DNA from: Serratia microhaemolytica
GTDB lineage: Bacteria; Pseudomonadota; Gammaproteobacteria; Enterobacterales; Enterobacteriaceae
NCBI RefSeq assembly: GCF_004011885.1
Contig: NZ_SBEF01000014.1
Coordinates: 1-64,000 of the forward strand
Direction: 5' to 3'
DNA length: 64,000 nucleotides
Shown here: positions 1,536 through 62,677 of the stretch, piece by piece
Layout of the letters: every line of letters starts with the position of its first letter
Position numbering within the stretch: position 1 is the stretch's first letter
Program-made: the position numbers and the translations under genes
The notes under the pieces: model-generated
The model's database searches: none
Told to the model about the DNA's origin: nothing
The model's input: the letters and a program-made list of their open reading frames with translations, nothing else

Positions 1536-1895
1536 GTAAAATTACCACCAATAGAAGCTATTAGTGTTTCTAATGAATTAAAATCATGAAATCACAGTAA
1601 AACTTTTGCATGCGTGCTGTGCTGTATCGATATAACACCATAAAAATAATAACTTATTTTTATTTTCTGTCGTGGGGTTGGCAAGTCAATCTAATGTTTT
1701 TTTTAGATCTTCATCACATCACACTTGTAACTTTCGCGCTAGGTTGTAGACTTTATATCGCCAAGGTTGCTCAATGACGCCAAAAACACTGGCTGAGTAG
1801 CACTCAAGAGTCCAAACTTTGGAGCAAGAATTTAAACCAAGGGCTGAATGTGGCTTTCACGCTCATGGTCTATCTGAATGATAACGAGGCGCAAA
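1536..1895 (+). other. sulA-ompA intergenic region containing the long ompA leader
   Basis: No gene is seen in these 360 bases. The right half holds the ompA promoter and an untranslated leader of roughly 135 nt. That length is close to the well-known leader of E. coli ompA, which folds at its 5' end and makes the mRNA long-lived. The last bases before the start, gataacgaggcgcaaa, match the E. coli leader as I recall it. Confidence 0.6.
1725..1752 (+). promoter_or_regulatory. ompA promoter
   Basis: TTGTAA (1725-1730) and TAGACT (1747-1752) are separated by 16 bases. The -10 element and the following bases (gttgtagactttatatcgcc) closely resemble the E. coli ompA promoter and transcript start. 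This places the 5' end near 1759. Confidence 0.65.
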
Positions 1896-2990
1896 ATGAA
1901 AAAGACAGCTATCGCATTAGCAGTGGCACTGGCTGGTTTCGCTACCGTAGCGAAAGCCGCTCCAGACGATAATACGTTCTACACCGGCGCGAAGGTTGGC
2001 TGGTCTAAATATTACAGCACTGGTTTTGAGGCTGAAGGTTTTGGCAGCCTGACAAGTGCAACGACAGACAGAAGCCAAGTGGGTGCGGGTGCCTTTATGG
2101 GCTACCAGGTTAATCCATTCATTGGTGTTGAGCTGGGTTACGACTGGCTTGGCCGTATGCCATATGCGGGTGTAGAAAATAATGGTGCTTTCAAAGCACA
2201 AGGTATCCAGTTGGCAGCCAAATTGGGTTACCCAATTCTGAACAATTTAGATGTTTATACCCGTTTAGGTGGTATGGCTTGGCGTGTTGATTCTAGTGCT
2301 AACTTTGGCGCTAACACTGCTGATAGCCAGCGTATCAGTGCGCATGATACCGGCGTGTCTCCTTTGGCTGCGTTGGGCTTCGAATATGCGGTAACTCGTA
2401 ACTGGGCAACTCGCCTAGATTATCAGTGGACTCATCAGATTGGCGATAAAGGCAGTGTGGGTGCGCGCCCTGACAATGGCCTGTTGAGCTTGGGTCTCTC
2501 TTACCGCTTTGGCCAGTCTGAGCCAATGCCGGTAGCAGCAGCGCCAATGCCAGAACCTACTCCAGTGGCGCCACCTGCTGAAGTGAAGAAATTTGAGCTG
2601 ACTTCTGACGTTCTGTTCGATTTCGGTAAGGCTACTGTTCGTACTCAAGGCCAACAGGCACTTGAGCAACTCTACTCTGAGTTGAGCGCACTGGATCCAG
2701 TAGAAGGTTCAGTGACAGTGACTGGTTTCACCGATGCCGTTGGTTCTGCAGACTTCAACATGCGTCTCTCTGAGCAACGTGCTCAATCTGTTACCAATTA
2801 CTTGATTTCTAAAGGCATTCCAGCTAACAGAATCACTACTCGTGGCATGGGTGCAGCTAACCCAGTGACTGGCGATAGCTGTGGTTTCCGTTCTGGTCGT
2901 CCAACAGCGGCACAGATTGCTTGTATGGCACCTGACCGTCGCGTAGAGATTGAAGTTCAAGGTACCAGAGAAGTTGTAGCTCAGCCTTAA
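1896..2990 (+). CDS. ompA: Outer membrane protein A
   Basis: OmpA is an abundant outer-membrane beta-barrel that also binds peptidoglycan. The 364-residue precursor starts with a 21-residue signal peptide ending AKA. The eight-strand barrel runs to about residue 205 (closing [11 protein letters not shown]). A Pro/Ala hinge (about 210-230) follows, then the periplasmic OmpA-like domain with the peptidoglycan-binding motif [16 protein letters not shown] and the two cysteines near the C-terminus. The start at 1896 is used instead of an in-frame ATG at 1878, because GAGG lies 8 bases upstream and MKKTAIA is the family start. Downstream, matP is expected in relatives but helD is found instead. Confidence 0.97.
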
Positions 2991-3012
2991 TTTCAATTAG
3001 CTATCTATAATC

Positions 3013-3049
3013 AACCAGTCATGCCTTCATGGTGTGGCTGGTTTTTTTA
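3013..3049 (+). terminator. ompA Rho-independent terminator
   Basis: A long stem begins aaccag (3013-3018) and ends ctggtt (3038-3043), with seven further inner pairs including wobble pairs around a five-base loop. It runs straight into seven T residues. Position and form are those of a classical intrinsic terminator. Confidence 0.9.
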
Positions 3050-3114
3050 TTATTAATCCATCGTGCTGTTTGTTGAAAACAGCGCCATCGCCCGCTTAGC
3101 TGTGCTCATCACTG

Positions 3115-3158
3115 GCCAGAAGTTTTCTATTTACCTGTTTCGCGGTAACGCTTCTGGC
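3115..3158. repeat. Nested inverted repeat between ompA and helD
   Basis: gccagaag (3115-3122) pairs perfectly with cttctggc (3151-3158). Inside it ttacc (3131-3135) pairs with ggtaa (3144-3148). There is no T tract, so it is not an obvious terminator. It sits at a gene-order breakpoint and may be a remnant of an interspersed palindromic element. Confidence 0.45.
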
Positions 3159-3215
3159 ATTGAATGGGTAGAATAGATTTCGGATACCGCTTTCAACATA
3201 TCAATGGCATAAGCA

Positions 3216-5315
3216 ATGGAACTTAAAGCGACAGCACTGGGCAAACATTTAGCACAACATCCCTACAATCGGATCCGATTACTTAATGCGGGGGTGGAAC
3301 TGAGAGGTGATAAGCATGAGTATCTATTGCCATTCAATCAGTTGATAAATATCACCTGCAAGCGAGGGGTTGTTTGGGGAGTGCTGGAGTTTGAATTGCC
3401 GGATGGCAAAGTCGTGCGGCTACACGGCACCGAGTGGCAGGCTACCAAGCAGTTTTATCATCGGCTACAGCACGTTTGGCAGCAGTGGAGCTTGGAGATG
3501 AGCCGAGTAAGTGCCAATGCGCTACAACAGCAACTTGATCATATTGACAGTGTCGAACGCCAGGATAAGTGGTTAAAAAGTCAAGATGTCACTGAATTAC
3601 AGCAGCAGATCCGCCAACTATTTGCCAACTTGCCAATGCCGCTAGCGCGTTTAACCCAGTTTGAGGATTGCCAAAGTCGCTACCAACGCTGCTTGTCATG
3701 GCTGCAAGATAATCCGGATGGTGTGGTGTTGCGTAACCAGCAATGGATGGCACGGGTGAAGCAACAACATCCTGACTTCTTCCGCCAGATTGAAGCCTCA
3801 CCGTTGAGTGATCAACAGATCCAAGTGATACTCAATGCTGAAGAGACTTTGCTGTTGCTCGCTGCAGCCGGTTGTGGAAAGAGCGCAATGTTAATCGCCC
3901 GCGTGTGCTGGTTACTGTTACGCAATGAAGCGGAACCGAGACAGATATTGTTGTTAGCCCCCAACAACTCACTGAGCGAACAACTAGAACAGCGCTTGCA
4001 TCAGCAGTGTGGAGTGCTACCAATCCAAGTTCATACATTAAACTCCTTGGCACAGCATATTGTGCAACAGAACAGTAGCAAAAGTTTTTTTATCAGTCAG
4101 TTGGAGCAAGATACTGCACTACGCAGAGCCTGGTTAACCAAACTGTGGCAACAGCAGTGTAATGAAAAAAAAGCACAAGCGAACGGTTGGCGGCAGTGGT
4201 TGAGTGAAGCGTTTGGTTGGCAGCTCAGTGAAGAACATTTTTGGCATCAGCCACCATTGGTGCAACGCTTGGCAGAACACCTTGATCGCTGGTTAACTGC
4301 GTTACGGGCGCAAACAGTGAGCCAAGCGCAGATATTGCAACAGGCCGAAGCTGCCATGCAACCGCTATTGAAAAAACGTCTGCAACTGATGGCACCACTG
4401 CTCAAGGCGTGGAAAGCCGCATTGAAACAGGAAAGCGCAGTAGATACATTTGCTCTTCATCAACAGGCGATCAAACTGCTACAAAACGGGCGTTTTATTA
4501 GCCCGTGGAAACAGATCTTGGTTGATGACTGGCAACAGATCCCACCGCAACAGCAGCAATTATTGACCACACTACATCAACAGCACAAGCGCACTAGTCT
4601 GTTTGCTACTGGCGATGAGCTGTCAATCAACGAAGTGATGCAGCGGCAGCACAAATCAGTCATGGCTGCGTTTAGCGACCACTTTGCCAACGCCAAGAGT
4701 TGCCACCTGGCGAGCAGTTACCGCTTCAATGCACGCATTGGCGAAGTTGTGACGCACTTGATCGGTGATGTTGATCGAGGGGTACAGCCAGCGCCAATCG
4801 GTCTGAGCAAAGGTAATAAAAAGTCGGTAATGATGTTGCCACAAAACCAGTTGCCGGCACTGCTCGATAAAATCAGTGGATATGCAAAACCTTCTGAGCA
4901 GGTGTTGCTGCTGGCACGTTATGAGTATCTAAAACCTGACCTGCTAGCCACGGCAGCGATCCGCTGGCCAACACTGACAATCTCATTTATGACGTTCGAA
5001 GCCAGCCAAGGGCAGCAAGCGGAATATGTCATTGTGAGCGGATTGGCACAGGATGATGATGCATTCCCATTCGAAACCAGCGACATATTACTAGAATATC
5101 TACTGTGTTTGGTTTCGAATGACCAGCTAAAAAACAATCAAACACAACAATGCCAGCAGTTAGCTGATACTGCGACTAAACGCGAGAGGCTGCAACTTTA
5201 CCTGGCACTGACACGAGCCAAACATCGTGTTTGGCTAATGTATGATGAGCAGCGACCGTCGACAGTGTTTGACCAACTGAAACAGATTGGCCTGCCGCTC
5301 AGCAAAAAACCGTAA
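3216..5315 (+). CDS. helD: DNA helicase IV (HelD/UvrD superfamily 1), motif-degenerate
   Basis: The 699-residue product aligns along its whole length with HelD (helicase IV, about 684 residues in E. coli), a 3'-5' SF1 helicase. Walker A is present as AAGCGKS (217-223, Lys222). The arginine motif LALTRAKHRVW (from about 663) and SYRFNARIGEV are also kept. Other motifs are altered. Motif II reads DDWQQ (437-441) where the family has DEFQD. Motif III begins GDELSIN (466-472) where GDDWQAI is expected. Motif V reads ASQGQQ (596-601) with Gln in place of the usual Lys. The motif Ia region also lacks its normal Lys-Ala-Ala. The frame is open, so the gene may make a stable but helicase-impaired protein. 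Convergent with mgsA, as in relatives. Confidence 0.85.
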   Translation: MELKATALGKHLAQHPYNRIRLLNAGVELRGDKHEYLLPFNQLINITCKRGVVWGVLEFELPDGKVVRLHGTEWQATKQFYHRLQHVWQQWSLEMSRVSANALQQQLDHIDSVERQDKWLKSQDVTELQQQIRQLFANLPMPLARLTQFEDCQSRYQRCLSWLQDNPDGVVLRNQQWMARVKQQHPDFFRQIEASPLSDQQIQVILNAEETLLLLAAAGCGKSAMLIARVCWLLLRNEAEPRQILLLAPNNSLSEQLEQRLHQQCGVLPIQVHTLNSLAQHIVQQNSSKSFFISQLEQDTALRRAWLTKLWQQQCNEKKAQANGWRQWLSEAFGWQLSEEHFWHQPPLVQRLAEHLDRWLTALRAQTVSQAQILQQAEAAMQPLLKKRLQLMAPLLKAWKAALKQESAVDTFALHQQAIKLLQNGRFISPWKQILVDDWQQIPPQQQQLLTTLHQQHKRTSLFATGDELSINEVMQRQHKSVMAAFSDHFANAKSCHLASSYRFNARIGEVVTHLIGDVDRGVQPAPIGLSKGNKKSVMMLPQNQLPALLDKISGYAKPSEQVLLLARYEYLKPDLLATAAIRWPTLTISFMTFEASQGQQAEYVIVSGLAQDDDAFPFETSDILLEYLLCLVSNDQLKNNQTQQCQQLADTATKRERLQLYLALTRAKHRVWLMYDEQRPSTVFDQLKQIGLPLSKKP

Positions 5316-5324
5316 TCTGCGGCA

Positions 5325-5783
5325 TCATCGCAGACGTTCAGCGAGATATTTTTGATAGTCGGGAATGGCTATCTCAACCGACTGTGCAAACAGTGGCGAC
5401 GCGATGAGAAAATCGGCGGTTGAACGATTGGTAGCCACCGGAATATTCCAAACTGTCGCTAAACGCAGTAGTGCTTTTACATCCGGATCATGCGGCACAG
5501 CATTGAGTGGATCCCAGAAGAAGATCAGCAGATCAATCTTGCCTTCGGAGATCAAAGCCCCTACCTGCTGATCACCGCCCATCGGGCCACTCAGTAGGCG
5601 CTGAACGGGTAGCGCACAAGCACGCTGGATCAGATTACCGGTAGTGCCGGTGGCATAAAGCAAGTGCTGGCTCAGCTCAGCGTTATGATCAGCCACCCAG
5701 GTCAGCATTGCTTGTTTACAGTGATCGTGTGCAACTAAGGCAATATGCTTTTGCTTGGACAGGATGCGTGTTGTTTGTTCCAT
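5325..5783 (-). CDS. mgsA: Methylglyoxal synthase
   Basis: MgsA converts dihydroxyacetone phosphate to methylglyoxal and phosphate, a bypass relieving sugar-phosphate stress. The 152-residue protein has the expected length and carries HDHCKQ, the glycine-rich TGTTGN phosphate loop, and [19 protein letters not shown] with the catalytic aspartates, followed by [20 protein letters not shown]. The start at 5783 matches the family N-terminus and has AAGGA just upstream; an earlier in-frame ATG at 5885 has neither. It is convergent with helD, ten bases away. Confidence 0.95.
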
Positions 5784-5887
5784 CTTTTTTCCTTGGTCAA
5801 TCGGTTGCGAACCACAATCGGCGTTGATACTTGGCCAACGGCGATGCAACGTAACATACCACCCGTATAGAGTGGGTCGGCACAATA

Positions 5888-36155: not shown

Positions 36156-36612
36156 CGCTAATTTACTAGCGCACTGAAACGAATAATCATCATCAATCTC
36201 TGTGTATTCAACAGGTAGTGCCTGTGCCTGATTGATTTTTCACCAGGGATGGTGATTGGATACAGGCTCAAGTCGAGTCGCAGCGTGTCATTCAATCGCG
36301 ATTGGCACGATGAACATCATGGATCCGCGTTGGTGTGCTGTTCAGCGCACTCAACACCATGACAGCGCTGCAACCGTCAGCGGGGGATAACGATCACCTG
36401 AATCTCACAGCCAGACACCCTGTATTAACGTAGGGTAAGAGAACCAGTTTCTTTGCATGCAACTGCGTGATTTAATCCCAGAACAGTGATTAAACTATCG
36501 TCTCAGTTAGGCTTTTTAGCCGTTGCGGTATCGACCATCACTCACCGTGATCAGAACCACTAAAACCAAGTCATTTACACGTATAATCAACGTGATAACA
36601 GGGAACGGGAAC
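36156..36612. other. Gene-free region between tldD and vgrG
   Basis: No gene is seen in this 457-base gap, where the ancestral block ends and the accessory island begins. A six-pair palindrome gcgcta/tagcgc (36155-36172) touches the tldD stop and may be its terminator, though no T tract follows. A further weak hairpin, cacc/ggtg, lies near 36240. An open frame from 36523 runs into vgrG but has no homology to it. Confidence 0.45.
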
Positions 36613-39249
36613 ATGAGCACTCAAGCCAGTGGATTGCAATTCACCCTTAGCGCCGGAGGCCAACCGGCAGGCACCTTCGCCGTAGTCGATTTCACCCTGC
36701 ACGAACACTATTCTTCACTGTTTGAACTGGAACTTAACCTCGCCAGCGCCAACCCGGCGGTTGATTTTGATGCGGTGCTTGATCGCGGGGCGACACTCTC
36801 GGTCTGGCGCGACGGCGTGCTGCAACGCACCGTTTCCGGCATTGTCACCTGCTTTCAACAGGGCGACAGCGGCTTCCAGCAAACCCGCTACCGCATGGAA
36901 GTACGCCCCAGCCTGTGGCGCTTGAGCCTGTGCCGTAACTCACGCATCTTCCAGCTTGAGACGATCGAGCAGATCATCAGCAAACTGCTGCGTGAAGCGC
37001 AAATCGTCGACTATGCCTTTGGCCTGCGCCACCCGCACCCAGCACGCGAATTCTGTGTGCAGTATCAAGAGAGTGACCTCGCGTTTATCCAGCGCCTGGC
37101 CGCCGAAGAGGGCATCTTCTTCTATTTTGAGTTCAACCAGGGCCGCCATACCGTAGTGTTTGCCGATGACTGCGGCATCATCCGGAAAAAAGCCAGCCTG
37201 CCGTACAACCCGAACGTCGCGGCACAAGCCAACGAGTTGTGCGTCAACCGCTTCATTTGCAGCGCGCAAGTGCGCCCGGCGGAGGTGCAACTGAAGGATC
37301 ACACCTTCAAAAACCCGCGCTGGGATGCGACATTCACCCAACAGGCCAGCGGTGAAATCGCTCAGCGTCGCAGTTACCAACAGTTTGATTTTCCTGGTCG
37401 CTTCAAAGATCAGCAGCACGGCAAAGACTTCACCCGCTACCGGCTGGAGGCGCTGCGCAACGACGCCCGCTTGGGGCGCGGCCACAGCAACGACTTCCGC
37501 CTGCAACCTGGCATTCTCCTGACGCTGAGCCAGCACCCGCGCGCTGACCTGAACGGCGACTGGCAACTGATCGCCACCCGCCACAGCGGCCAACAACCGC
37601 AAGCGATGGAGCAGGAAGCCGGCGAGCAAGGCACCCACCTCACCAGCGAGTTCCAGTTTATCCCGCGCACCCAGACCTGGCGGCCAACGCCACTGCCGAA
37701 ACCGGTCATCGACGGGCCACATCTGGCCAAGGTAGTCGGCCCCGGCAACGAAGAGATCTTCTGCGATGAACATGGCCGCATCCGCGTGCAGTTCCGTTGG
37801 GATCGCTACGGCAACAGCGACGACCACAGCTCATGCTGGATCCGCGTCAGCCAGCCGTGGGCAGGACAAGGCTGGGGCATGATCGCCATCCCGCGCGTCG
37901 GCCAGGAAGTGGTGATCCACTTCCTGCACGGCGATCCGGATCAACCGATGGTCACCGGCCGCACCTATCATGCGGTCAACCGCGCCGCGCTGAAACTGCC
38001 GATGGCGAAAACCCAGATGGTGCTGCGTAGCAAAACCCACAAAGGCGAAGGCTACAACGAACTGCGCTTTGAAGATGCCAAGGGCATGGAAGGCCTATTC
38101 CTGCGTGCCCAGCGCGACATGACCACCCAAGTGCTCAACAACCGCGTCACCGAAGTGGGGGCTAACCACATCGAAACGGTGCGACAAAATCAGCAGATTG
38201 AGATTGGCCAACATTATCACTTCACCGCGCACGGCAACCACACCCTCACGGTTCAGGGCGATCAACACACCAAGATCAACGGCCAACAGCAACGCACGGT
38301 ACAACAGGTGCTGGAACTGGCCTCGGCGCGCGGCATTCGGCTGGAGAGCGGCGCATCGGCACTGGAACTGCACGCCGACGGCCGTATCAGCCTGCACGGC
38401 AAAAACTTCAACATTTATGCCACACACAACGGCCAGATCACCGCCAGCCAAGCGCTCGATCTCAACGATGAACAGCAGCTTGCCGAAGCCAGCCAGTGGA
38501 TAAAAAATGCGTTTGCTGGCCAGCCATTAACGGTCGAAACCGGCGCTAATGTCACACCGGAAGCGGCTGCCGCGGCAAGCACCACAGCGGACGGCGAGCA
38601 CAACCGCACTGAACCGACATTGAGCACACTCAACAGTGCAGCGGTGGGGCGATTGCTGGCCGCCGGTGCGCTGTATCACCAAAACCCAGAGACCTTTGCC
38701 ACTATAGCCGAACAGTTGGGCGGCGAAGCGCTCGACGCTTATCATGCTGATTACCAAGACCCACGCTCCCAGGAGGCCATCAGCCAGCTCTCAACCTTGG
38801 TCGATTTTGTCCCGGTGGTCGGCGATATTAAAGGCTTTGCCGAAGCGGAAGACACGCTCGATTTTCTCGCTGCCGCCATCGGCGTGATCCCGGTTGTCGG
38901 CGACGCCGCTGGCAAAGCGCTGAAAGCAGCGAAACAAGCACTGAAAAAAGGCGATAAGCTGAATCAAAAGCAAGAAAGTGCTATCAAAAAGATTGATAAC
39001 ACAATAAAACACTCCATAAAGGACCATGATATTACTGGAACACTTAAAGATATGGAGGGGACACCTGTACCCAAAAAGGAAGGAGGATATTGGGATCACA
39101 TGCAAGAAATGCAAAATACACTGAGGGGATTAAGGAAGCATGCAGACACACTGAAAAATGTAAATAATCCAGATGCTCAGGCAGCATATAACAGAGCAAC
39201 CAATGCCATCAATAGAATTGAATCCGCAATAAAGGGGTATGGTATATGA
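36613..39249 (+). CDS. vgrG: VgrG spike protein with C-terminal toxin domain (evolved type VI effector)
   Basis: VgrG trimers form the tip of the type VI secretion needle; this one carries a cargo. The 878 residues run as follows. A gp27-like hub occupies 1 to about 350. The gp5-like OB fold ([18 protein letters not shown], then [26 protein letters not shown]) occupies about 382-460, and the beta-helical spike lies at about 470-625. A helical linker follows. A pretoxin region at about 721-780 has two copies of a PVVGD-type motif ([26 protein letters not shown]). The toxin is about 780-878. The toxin end ([20 protein letters not shown]..) resembles polymorphic toxin type 28, which I recall as an RNase domain. 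The body is GC-rich (39 of 60 in row 37801-37860) and the toxin AT-rich (22 of 60 in row 39001-39060). ATG at 36613 has an acggga site. Confidence 0.88.
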
Positions 39250-60394: not shown

Positions 60395-60514
60395 TAGAAA
60401 AATGCTTGTGATGCTGAAGTTGTGCTACGGCAGCTACGGCACAGCATAAGCGATAACTCGACCCAGTAACACGCCAGCACAATTGGCGTTTTGCGATGAC
60501 TCCTGGTGGTGGCT

Positions 60515-62677
60515 ATGGACGTTTCCCAACTGCTCAACAACATGAATGATAAACAGCGTGAAGCGGTGGCGGCACCCCGGCGCAATTTGCTGGTGCTAGC
60601 CGGTGCCGGCAGTGGCAAGACGCGTGTACTGGTACATCGCATCGCCTGGTTACTGGCCGTTGAGCACTGTTCACCATTCTCGATCATGGCGGTGACATTC
60701 ACCAACAAAGCGGCGGCAGAAATGCGCCACCGTATTGAGCAACTGGTTGGTAGCCACCAAGCGGGTATGTGGATTGGCACTTTCCACGGTTTAGCGCATC
60801 GGCTGTTACGTGCGCACCCGCTGGACGCCAATCTACCCGCTGATTTCCAGATCCTGGATAGTGAAGATCAGCTACGGCTGCTCAAACGTATTGTGCGTGC
60901 TCTCAACCTAGATGAGAAGCAGTGGGCACCGCGTCAGGCAATGTGGTACATCAATAACAAAAAAGATGATGGTCTTCGACCGCAACACATTGAAAGTTAT
61001 GGCAACCCGGTAGAGGCAACCTGGCAGCGCATTTATCAGGCTTATCAGGAAGCCTGTGATCGCGCCGGGTTAGTGGATTTTGCCGAACTGCTGCTGCGCG
61101 CACATGAGCTATGGCTCAACAAACCGGCAATCCTTAACCACTATCGTGCGCGTTTTAGCAACATCTTGGTGGATGAGTTTCAGGATACCAACCGTATCCA
61201 ATATGCCTGGATCCGCCTGCTGGCGGGTGATCAAGCCAATGTGATGATTGTCGGTGATGATGATCAGTCGATTTATGGCTGGCGTGGCGCACAGGTAGAA
61301 AATATTCAACGCTTTTTGCAGGATTTCCCAGCCACAGAGACGGTACGTTTAGAGCAGAATTACCGCTCTACCAGCATTATCTTAACCGCTGCCAATACCT
61401 TAATCGCCAATAATGCTGGACGGATGGGGAAAAATCTCTGGACTGACGGTGTCGAGGGTGAACCGATCTCGCTTTATTCTGCTTTTAACGAGCTGGATGA
61501 AGCACGTTTTGTCGTGGGTCGAATTAAAGCCTGGCAACAGCAAGGGGGCGCGCTCAGTGATTGCGCCATCCTGTACCGCAGTAACGCACAGTCACGTGTA
61601 CTGGAAGAGGCTCTACTACAGAGCAACATGCCCTACCGTATCTATGGTGGAATGCGCTTTTTTGAACGGCAAGAGATCAAGGATGCATTGGCCTACCTGC
61701 GTTTGATCGCGAACCGCAATGATGATGCAGCCTTTGAACGTGTGGTCAATGTGCCAACACGCGGAATTGGCGACCGTACCTTGGAGATGGTGCGTCATAC
61801 CGCCCGTGATCAACAGCTTACCTTGTGGCAATCCACCCATCGGTTGTTGCGCGACAAAGTGCTAGCAGGGCGCGCCGCCGCCTCTTTACAGCGTTTTTTG
61901 GAATTGATTGATGCACTGGCACAGGATAGTGCCGAGTTACCACTTCACCAGCAGACCGATAGGGTGATACGTGATTCAGGTCTGTTTAGCATGTACGAAC
62001 AGGAGAAGGGCGAAAAAGGGCAAGCTCGGATTGAAAACTTGGAAGAACTGGTCACAGCAACCAAGCAGTATTCACTGCCGGAAACAGACCAAGAGCTTAC
62101 GCCATTGCAGGCGTTTCTGGCACATGCCGCATTAGAAGCGGGCGAAGGGCAAGCCGATGCCTATCAGGACGCAGTACAACTGATGACGTTGCACTCAGCG
62201 AAGGGGCTGGAGTTTCGTCAGGTGTTTATTGTCGGCATGGAGGAGGGGATGTTCCCCAGCCAGATGTCACTGGATGAGTCAGGACGGCTAGAGGAGGAGC
62301 GCCGCTTGGCTTATGTCGGGCTGACACGCGCGATGCAAAAGTTAACCCTCAGCTATGCGGAAAGTCGTCGCCTTTATGGCAAAGAAGTTTATCATCGTCC
62401 TTCGCGTTTTATTGCTGAACTACCGGCAGAGTGCCTAGAGGAAGTGCGCTTGCGTGCTAGCGTCTCCCGGCCGGTGCAGCGTCAACGTAGCGGTACGCCA
62501 CTTAACCTGAATGATAGTGGCTATCGGCTCGGGCAGCGTGTTCGTCACCCAACATTTGGTGAAGGCACTATTATTAATTTAGAAGGCAGTGGTGAGCATT
62601 GCCGGTTGCAAATCGCCTTTCAGGGTGAAGGTATCAAGTGGTTAGTGGCTGCGTATGCCAAATTGCAGGCGCTATGA
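60515..62677 (+). CDS. uvrD: DNA helicase II
   Basis: UvrD is the 3'-5' helicase of nucleotide excision and mismatch repair. The 720 residues equal the E. coli length. Motif I LAGAGSGKTRVL, Ia TFTNKAAAEM, II VDEFQDTN, III VGDDDQSIYGWRGA, IV LEQNYRSTS, V TLHSAKGLEF and VI AYVGLTRAMQ are all intact, in contrast to the HelD paralogue in this window. The C-terminal tudor-like domain (GQRVRHPTFGEGTIINLEGSG) is present. The start at 60515 (MDVSQLLNNMNDKQ) matches the family; GTG at 60506 is not needed. LexA-controlled promoter upstream. Confidence 0.97.
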   Translation: MDVSQLLNNMNDKQREAVAAPRRNLLVLAGAGSGKTRVLVHRIAWLLAVEHCSPFSIMAVTFTNKAAAEMRHRIEQLVGSHQAGMWIGTFHGLAHRLLRAHPLDANLPADFQILDSEDQLRLLKRIVRALNLDEKQWAPRQAMWYINNKKDDGLRPQHIESYGNPVEATWQRIYQAYQEACDRAGLVDFAELLLRAHELWLNKPAILNHYRARFSNILVDEFQDTNRIQYAWIRLLAGDQANVMIVGDDDQSIYGWRGAQVENIQRFLQDFPATETVRLEQNYRSTSIILTAANTLIANNAGRMGKNLWTDGVEGEPISLYSAFNELDEARFVVGRIKAWQQQGGALSDCAILYRSNAQSRVLEEALLQSNMPYRIYGGMRFFERQEIKDALAYLRLIANRNDDAAFERVVNVPTRGIGDRTLEMVRHTARDQQLTLWQSTHRLLRDKVLAGRAAASLQRFLELIDALAQDSAELPLHQQTDRVIRDSGLFSMYEQEKGEKGQARIENLEELVTATKQYSLPETDQELTPLQAFLAHAALEAGEGQADAYQDAVQLMTLHSAKGLEFRQVFIVGMEEGMFPSQMSLDESGRLEEERRLAYVGLTRAMQKLTLSYAESRRLYGKEVYHRPSRFIAELPAECLEEVRLRASVSRPVQRQRSGTPLNLNDSGYRLGQRVRHPTFGEGTIINLEGSGEHCRLQIAFQGEGIKWLVAAYAKLQAL

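Follow-up and report, generated by a model that had tools for sequence, protein, structure and literature searches.

HelD (DNA helicase IV) with an eroded motor and a retained N-terminal domain: a probable pseudohelicase with parallels in two other genera

The helD gene of the window (the whole stretch of 64,000 nucleotides analysed here) probably encodes a retained pseudohelicase, a DNA helicase IV in which the motor has been lost while the N-terminal domain and the ATP pocket have been kept, and the same change appears to have taken place independently in at least three genera. The protein descends from a helicase and has lost catalytic motifs, which is what defines a pseudohelicase in the consulted sections of PMC4504706. 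If this reading is correct, the eroded genes are natural separation-of-function alleles pointing to a helicase-independent role of HelD, and they form a recurrent bacterial example beside the few pseudohelicases described. No report of a motor-dead helicase IV was found in the titles and abstracts of the open-licence literature searched.

The gene (3216-5315, + strand) reads from its ATG through 699 codons without interruption. Its product scores 752.8 bits against the NCBIfam profile PRK11054 (cut-off 543), with residues 1-699 aligned to model positions 1-684, and thus belongs to the DNA helicase IV family over its full length. The N-terminal domain (residues 1-160; 3216-3695, +) is retained, as seen from its match to Pfam Helicase_IV_N (206.6 bits, residues 1-164), its conserved residues and its branch rate. 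The neighbouring mgsA (5325-5885, - strand; product 75% identical to E. coli MgsA) is convergent with helD, as in E. coli and in 8 of the 8 relatives' loci tested, and because of this shared neighbour, together with the family match, the window helD is taken as a true orthologue of helicase IV. At the protein level it is 46% identical to E. coli HelD and 54-55% identical to its nearest relatives; the UvrD encoded in the same window (60506-62677) is 87-88% identical to its own. Directly upstream of helD lies ompA, and a terminator-like hairpin is found at 3013-3043 (within 1878-5885).

The source genome, of 3.26 Mb in 134 contigs and estimated at 99.94% completeness, is the sole genome of its genus compared, and this single assembly is what would favour an artefact of assembly or annotation, or replacement of the HelD motor by that of a paralogue or by one acquired horizontally. 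Such an origin is scarcely credible: the helicase IV match spans the whole length of the protein, the mgsA neighbour is conserved, the N-terminal domain and the motor are both nearest by identity to HelD of the same relatives, from the sister clade, and the same pattern occurs in independent assemblies of two other genera. When the source genome was searched with the window HelD, helD was found once and UvrD was the only other match. We also considered that an additional UvrD-like helicase had taken over from HelD and rejected this, as the helicase set of the source genome (UvrD, a single Rep-like protein and a 1224-aa frame, similar in size to RecB, that matches weakly) is like that of its relatives. 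A second HelD-like stretch was seen elsewhere, at locus L236 of genome G174 (genus g2), in a 959-aa frame that is 24-33% identical over motor parts.

For comparison, HelD sequences were gathered from one genome per genus (149 family genomes searched, of which 89 besides the window gave full-length sequences that were used), from nine full-length named loci and from E. coli. Once the window and the two eroded genera had been taken out, the canonical set comprised 97 sequences (96 distinct, L035 and L057 being identical). The truncated genes L040 and L042 were left out, and the helD of G082, which is split by a contig edge and whose visible motifs are canonical save for Arg474 to Gln, was left uncounted. 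At the scored ATP-binding and catalytic positions all 97 canonical sequences are unchanged; ssDNA or coupling positions vary in 8 of them, the maximum being four changes in one sequence. That maximum belongs to L019 (G012), with normal catalytic residues and changes at ssDNA-motif positions 250, 251, 595 and 597, possibly an early stage of the same erosion.

Aligned to this set, the motifs of the window HelD, all on the + strand, fall into kept and eroded ones. Motif I or Walker A (3858-3893; GCGKS, LAAAGCGKSAML) keeps Lys222, with Thr223 changed to Ser, motif IV (4707-4745; YRFN, LASSYRFNARIGE) keeps Arg503, and motif VI (5181-5234; YLALTRAK, RERLQLYLALTRAKHRVW) keeps the Arg of its TRA motif. 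Motif Ia (3948-3986; LLLAPNNSLSEQL) is eroded from FGRQAA to PNNSLS, motif Ib (4035-4055; TLNSLAQ) from TFH to TLN, and motif II or Walker B (4515-4547; ILVDDWQQIPP) from DEFQD to DDWQQ, with the catalytic Glu438 changed to Asp. Motif III (4608-4649) is destroyed, with TGDELSINEVMQRQ in place of VGDDWQAIYRFSGA, and motif V (4992-5036; TFEASQGQQAEYVIV) is partly eroded, with His595 changed to Glu and Lys598 to Gln. Between motifs V and VI lies an in-frame insertion of 15 aa (5106-5150; about residues 631-645), canonical HelD being 679-685 aa long.

Several of these features had been read from the DNA in an earlier note, and the alignment bears out the open 699-codon frame with its Walker A lysine, the motif II and III readings (DDWQQ for DEFQD, GDELSIN for GDDWQAI) and the Gln for Lys in motif V (ASQGQQ), as well as the intact motifs of UvrD, which were checked by eye on the translation. 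The note had also described motif Ia as lacking its Lys-Ala-Ala; Ala253 and Ala254 are indeed lost, while the Lys is not a fixed residue, since normal HelD has Gln or Lys after the Arg and Gln is the commonest (44 of 99). The losses that count in motif Ia are Phe249, Gly250, Arg251, Ala253 and Ala254.

Residues conserved in at least 97% of the 97 canonical sequences were sorted into ATP-binding, catalytic and ssDNA-contacting or coupling classes as known for SF1A helicases. The classes were checked in part against the sections of PMC3797037 that were available and against a UvrD alignment. Among the catalytic and ssDNA/coupling residues 18 of 22 are changed in the window HelD, compared with 1 of 8 ATP-binding residues (Thr223 to Ser, the other seven being identical), 36 of 139 other conserved motor residues and 3 of 47 in the N-terminal domain. 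By Fisher's test the first class differs from the N-terminal domain (p=4.5e-10) and from the ATP-binding residues (p=0.0011), p values that are descriptive because the classes were set after the motifs named by the earlier reader had been seen. The motif II Glu and motif III Gln of an active SF1A helicase are both gone (Glu438 to Asp and Gln470 to Ser, at positions invariant in 97 of 97 canonical sequences), and so are 14 of the 17 conserved ssDNA-contact positions of motifs Ia, Ib, III and V; the Walker A lysine and the ATP pocket of such an enzyme are present.

Compensated frameshifts were considered as a source of the scrambled motifs and rejected, as comparison of the DNA with a relative's gene at offsets of -5 to +5 (motifs Ia, III and V of the window, motif III of the eroded genes of G034 and G103, described below) brought out no prominent out-of-frame offset. 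For motif III this comparison is weak, because identities are low at every offset: 0.35 in register and 0.40 at +3, in frame, for the window, and 0.33 in register and 0.35 at +1 for G103 against G048.

The suggestion in the earlier note that the protein may be inactive is thus well supported at the sequence level, since neither the catalytic Glu nor the motif III Gln remains and most positions that stack on ssDNA have gone as well. Its companion suggestion, that the protein still binds DNA, is disfavoured for the canonical ssDNA groove: in D. radiodurans UvrD the Phe of motif Ia, the His of motif Ib and Tyr, Phe and Arg residues at motif III pack on ssDNA, according to the consulted part of PMC3797037, and the positions that do so are lost here. 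The N-terminal domain might still bind something.

On the mechanism that we propose, the ssDNA-binding pocket and the coupling motifs (Ia, Ib, III and in part V) would have been lost since the split from the sister genus g79, together with the catalytic Glu of motif II, while Gln201, Lys222, Asp437, Arg503, Arg652 and the N-terminal domain were kept. Unwinding and translocation would then be gone, and the protein would still fold and probably bind ATP without productive hydrolysis, so that a nucleotide-bound scaffold could present the N-terminal domain to a partner, either protein or nucleic acid. Selection would maintain this scaffold or N-domain function, having released the motor, and three or more genera of the family would have undergone the same change separately.

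The motor could instead have been re-tuned and remain active, with Asp438 as the catalytic acid, other DNA contacts (for example through the insert or the N-terminal domain) and a weak ATPase or translocase activity on a different substrate. All six eroded proteins known to us, from three lineages, retain the eight ATP-pocket positions bar the one Thr-to-Ser, and Glu438 is replaced by Asp in 3 of 3 lineages (in one of them, g104, in three of four species), which hints that an acid is still wanted. Against this stand the loss of most ssDNA-stacking positions and the state of motif III, through which UvrD, PcrA and RecQ link ATP hydrolysis to DNA binding (PMC7140857, in the part available). This motif is unrecognisable in the window, G103, G149 and G150 and is evolving freely in the latter three. 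We consider a re-tuned motor distinctly improbable.

The second view of the earlier note, an early pseudogene, was addressed through evolutionary rates and through the pattern of loss. Branch lengths were fitted on a tree of control proteins, and HelD rates were scaled by UvrD, HrpB and YhdP and expressed relative to the median of the 31 tips. The motor branch of the window is 3.04 times the median and its N-domain branch 0.87 times, compared with 2.36 and 0.93 for G034 (the only genome of its genus, g35) and 9.9-11.5 and 1.4-3.5 for g104. The highest other motor tips are G143 (2.10) and G137 (2.07), neither of which is changed at the scored motif residues, so that the motor rate of G034 taken by itself is little above that of genes with normal motifs. 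When N-domain identity minus motor identity was compared with four reference genes, the window ranked first of 99 each time, with G103 second.

Synonymous sites between the helD genes of the window and G078 (genus g79) are saturated, so dN/dS of the window branch could not be computed, and the coding frame itself was used. The two motors are 49% identical (256 of 520 residues) compared with about 75% expected at the control rate, corresponding to about 136 excess changed motor sites in the window. With 0.063 nonsense changes for each missense change, neutrality would predict about 8.6 stops among these, and the window helD contains none, nor any frameshift. Its frame is open over all 699 codons, and loss of constraint is far from uniform, at 3 of 47 in the N-terminal domain versus 18 of 22 among the catalytic and ssDNA residues. 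These observations, with an N-terminal domain evolving at normal speed and dN/dS in g104 well below 1 outside the motifs, weigh against the pseudogene view. A slower version of it holds that helD is dispensable, that sites dedicated to its function go first and that the open frame is a matter of time. HelD matches are indeed absent from G069 and G147 (both about 3 Mb) and from many of the family's very small genomes, the helD of G028 is broken, and the N-terminal domain is somewhat relaxed in g104. True decay as in G028 looks different, with several stops and matching pieces in two frames, and all four species of g104 have an open frame, with omega at 0.13-0.17 outside the motifs and 1.49 in the motif III segment, a difference that neutrality would level. 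Slow decay therefore seems unlikely to us, and a retained pseudohelicase remains the preferred reading. The broken gene of G028 (L257) is a true helD pseudogene in a genome of low estimated completeness (49%).

The two other genera with eroded helD are g35 and g104, the latter comprising four species (G103, G149, G150 and G151). The frame is open in G034 and in all four species of g104. Motifs II, III and V of G034 read DDFQM, GDDEQAVYCVDEA and IDASQG, and motifs Ia, II and III of G103 read APDRQG, DDIQA and VESRLVYGGSDDV. At the 22 catalytic and ssDNA positions 12 losses were counted in G034, 16 in G103, 15 in G149, 12 in G150 and approximately 13 in G151, where deletions put the motif III alignment off register and make the counts at positions 467-477 approximate; in all five proteins ATP-binding losses are 0 of 8 and N-domain losses 0 of 47. 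The depth of loss varies: Gln470 and Tyr473 are still present in G034, as are Glu438 and Asp441 in G151. The Glu438-to-Asp signature PWK(H/Q)IL(V/I)DD, a degenerate pattern matched exactly that may miss variants with other flanks and that G151 escapes by its kept Glu438, was found in 5 of 392 family genomes and 3 of 154 genera, namely in the window, G034, G103, G149 and G150.

The same parts of the motor were affected in the three lineages. Fourteen of the 167 conserved motor columns are lost in all three, compared with 2.05 expected (20,000 permutations, p ~ 5e-5), and the pairwise overlaps are likewise in excess (p values of 6.2e-8, 2.4e-7 and 5.3e-5). Conversely, 75 of the 167 are kept in all six eroded proteins, among them Gln201, Gly219, Gly221, Lys222, Asp437, Tyr502, Arg503 and Arg652. 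Pooled over the lineages, 1 of 24 ATP-pocket residues is changed versus 46 of 66 other motif residues (p=1.4e-8). Compared with conserved motor residues in general (74 of 417 changed) the ATP pocket does not differ significantly (p=0.097), and for this reason we claim from the alignments that the pocket is retained and make no claim of special selection for it.

In the control tree (UvrD, HrpB and YhdP; 31 tips; UvrD of G149, G150 and G151 partial, 601-602 aa) the neighbour of the window is G078 (support 0.999), that of G034 is G001 (0.989) and that of g104 is G048 (0.883). The neighbouring genera are canonical at all 31 scored residues in 7 of 7 genomes of g79 and in 20 of 20 of g2, the genus of G001, and the G048 gene belongs to the canonical set. 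With canonical nearest relatives and three separate places in the tree, the control proteins show that the erosion arose independently in three non-sister genera. The earlier note had named close relatives of normal function sharing the substitutions as a refutation of its reading, and the seven canonical sister-genus genomes are the opposite of that. The full HelD tree groups the window, G103 and G034 weakly (0.62 and 0.59); we considered a single clade of eroded genes and rejected it, reading this grouping as long-branch attraction, as the control tree separates all three. In a tree of the N-terminal domain G034 stands with G001 (0.965) and G103 elsewhere (0.79), and the window lies beside the clade of G034 and G001 (0.81) rather than with G078, which conflicts with the control tree.

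Loss of the neighbouring yccF was considered as a common genomic cause and rejected. Both yccF and yccS lie upstream of helD in E. coli, G078, G001, G048 and g104, no match to either was found anywhere in the window, and at the G034 locus yccF alone is absent beside helD; the window and G034 are thus without yccF, and all four g104 species have it.

Within g104 the species are close enough for omega to be estimated (three closest species, pooled Nei-Gojobori). It is 0.13 in the N-terminal domain (bootstrap 0.08-0.20), 0.17 in the motor outside the motifs (0.14-0.22), 0.43 in the motifs (0.28-0.64), 1.49 in the motif III segment 463-485 (0.79-3.02) and 0.95 in the stretch 465-497 (0.38-2.06); motor omega is 0.36-0.44 when the more distant G151 is included. 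In the canonical genera g79 and g2 the motifs are slowest (0.010-0.012), with 0.002-0.012 in the motif III segment and 0.037-0.071 in the N-terminal domain, values that are rough because dS is near saturation (medians mostly 0.95-1.8). The eroded genus g104 inverts the usual order, with the working parts of the motor free and the rest under purifying selection. Its N-terminal domain is also faster than usual (1.4-3.5 times the median rate; omega 0.13 versus 0.037-0.071), and relaxation is thus not confined to the motor. The length of motif III is equal in the three closest species despite its differing sequence. At the g104 loci L104-L107 synonymous divergence in helD is about 2-3 times as great as in uvrD and hrpB, possibly as a result of a near-terminus position or of gene exchange, and it is also higher in the canonical pairs with computable values.

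AlphaFold2 models built from an alignment of ten sequences were poor (pLDDT of 67.6 for the window HelD and 68.9 for a canonical one), and the structural argument therefore rests on sequence, from which we infer that the fold is intact. Foldseek placed UvrD and Rep structures first for the window model, at low TM-scores of about 0.3. Searched singly against solved structures, the window protein gave nothing at E 1e-5, and the HelD family profile found UvrD, PcrA and Rep.

The window HelD resembles E. coli HelD in its full-length PRK11054 match, its N-terminal domain and its helD-mgsA neighbourhood, and differs in that E. coli HelD has all SF1 motifs while the window protein lacks the catalytic and DNA-contact residues and carries the 15-aa insert. 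E. coli HelD is described as a weakly processive 3'-5' helicase in the available part of PMC8655204. A knockout gave no sensitivity phenotype in one screen, and HelD is placed in the RecF pathway, in the section of PMC4437897 consulted. UvrD of the window shares the SF1A fold and has its motifs intact. A closer parallel is PriA of D. radiodurans, likewise a genome-maintenance helicase kept without a working motor in one lineage; excerpts of PMC4504706 describe it as a tested pseudohelicase without measurable ATPase, in which Walker A and B match poorly and DNA binding is kept, and report evidence for contact with DnaB. Unlike PriA, the window HelD keeps its Walker A Lys, has lost the ssDNA pocket, belongs to a pattern with at least three origins and is known from sequence alone. 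HelD of Bacillus and Mycobacterium, which has an SF1-type fold without being a helicase and acts as an RNA polymerase recycling factor (PMC8655204, in the part available), is a separate Gram-positive family that uses ATP hydrolysis; against its profile NF041464 the window HelD scores 15.3 bits, far below the cut-off of 419. For E. coli HelD no role with RNA polymerase is reported in the portion of PMC12448304 consulted.

That the motor has been lost repeatedly in nature, with the N-terminal domain and the core apparently still under selection, means that a second function of HelD probably exists, and the eroded genes are ready-made alleles for seeking such a motor-independent role. As to its nature we would tentatively suggest that enterobacterial HelD may be bifunctional, with the N-terminal domain doing an unwinding-independent job on an ATP-binding SF1 scaffold and at least three genera having shed the motor, a suggestion that we put forward as plausible and not as the established case. 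For genome annotation, the label 'DNA helicase IV' can mislead on activity. Elsewhere in the window, the product of a VgrG-like open reading frame (36523-39249) is much extended at its C-terminus and was read by eye as a type VI secretion spike with a possible cargo domain.
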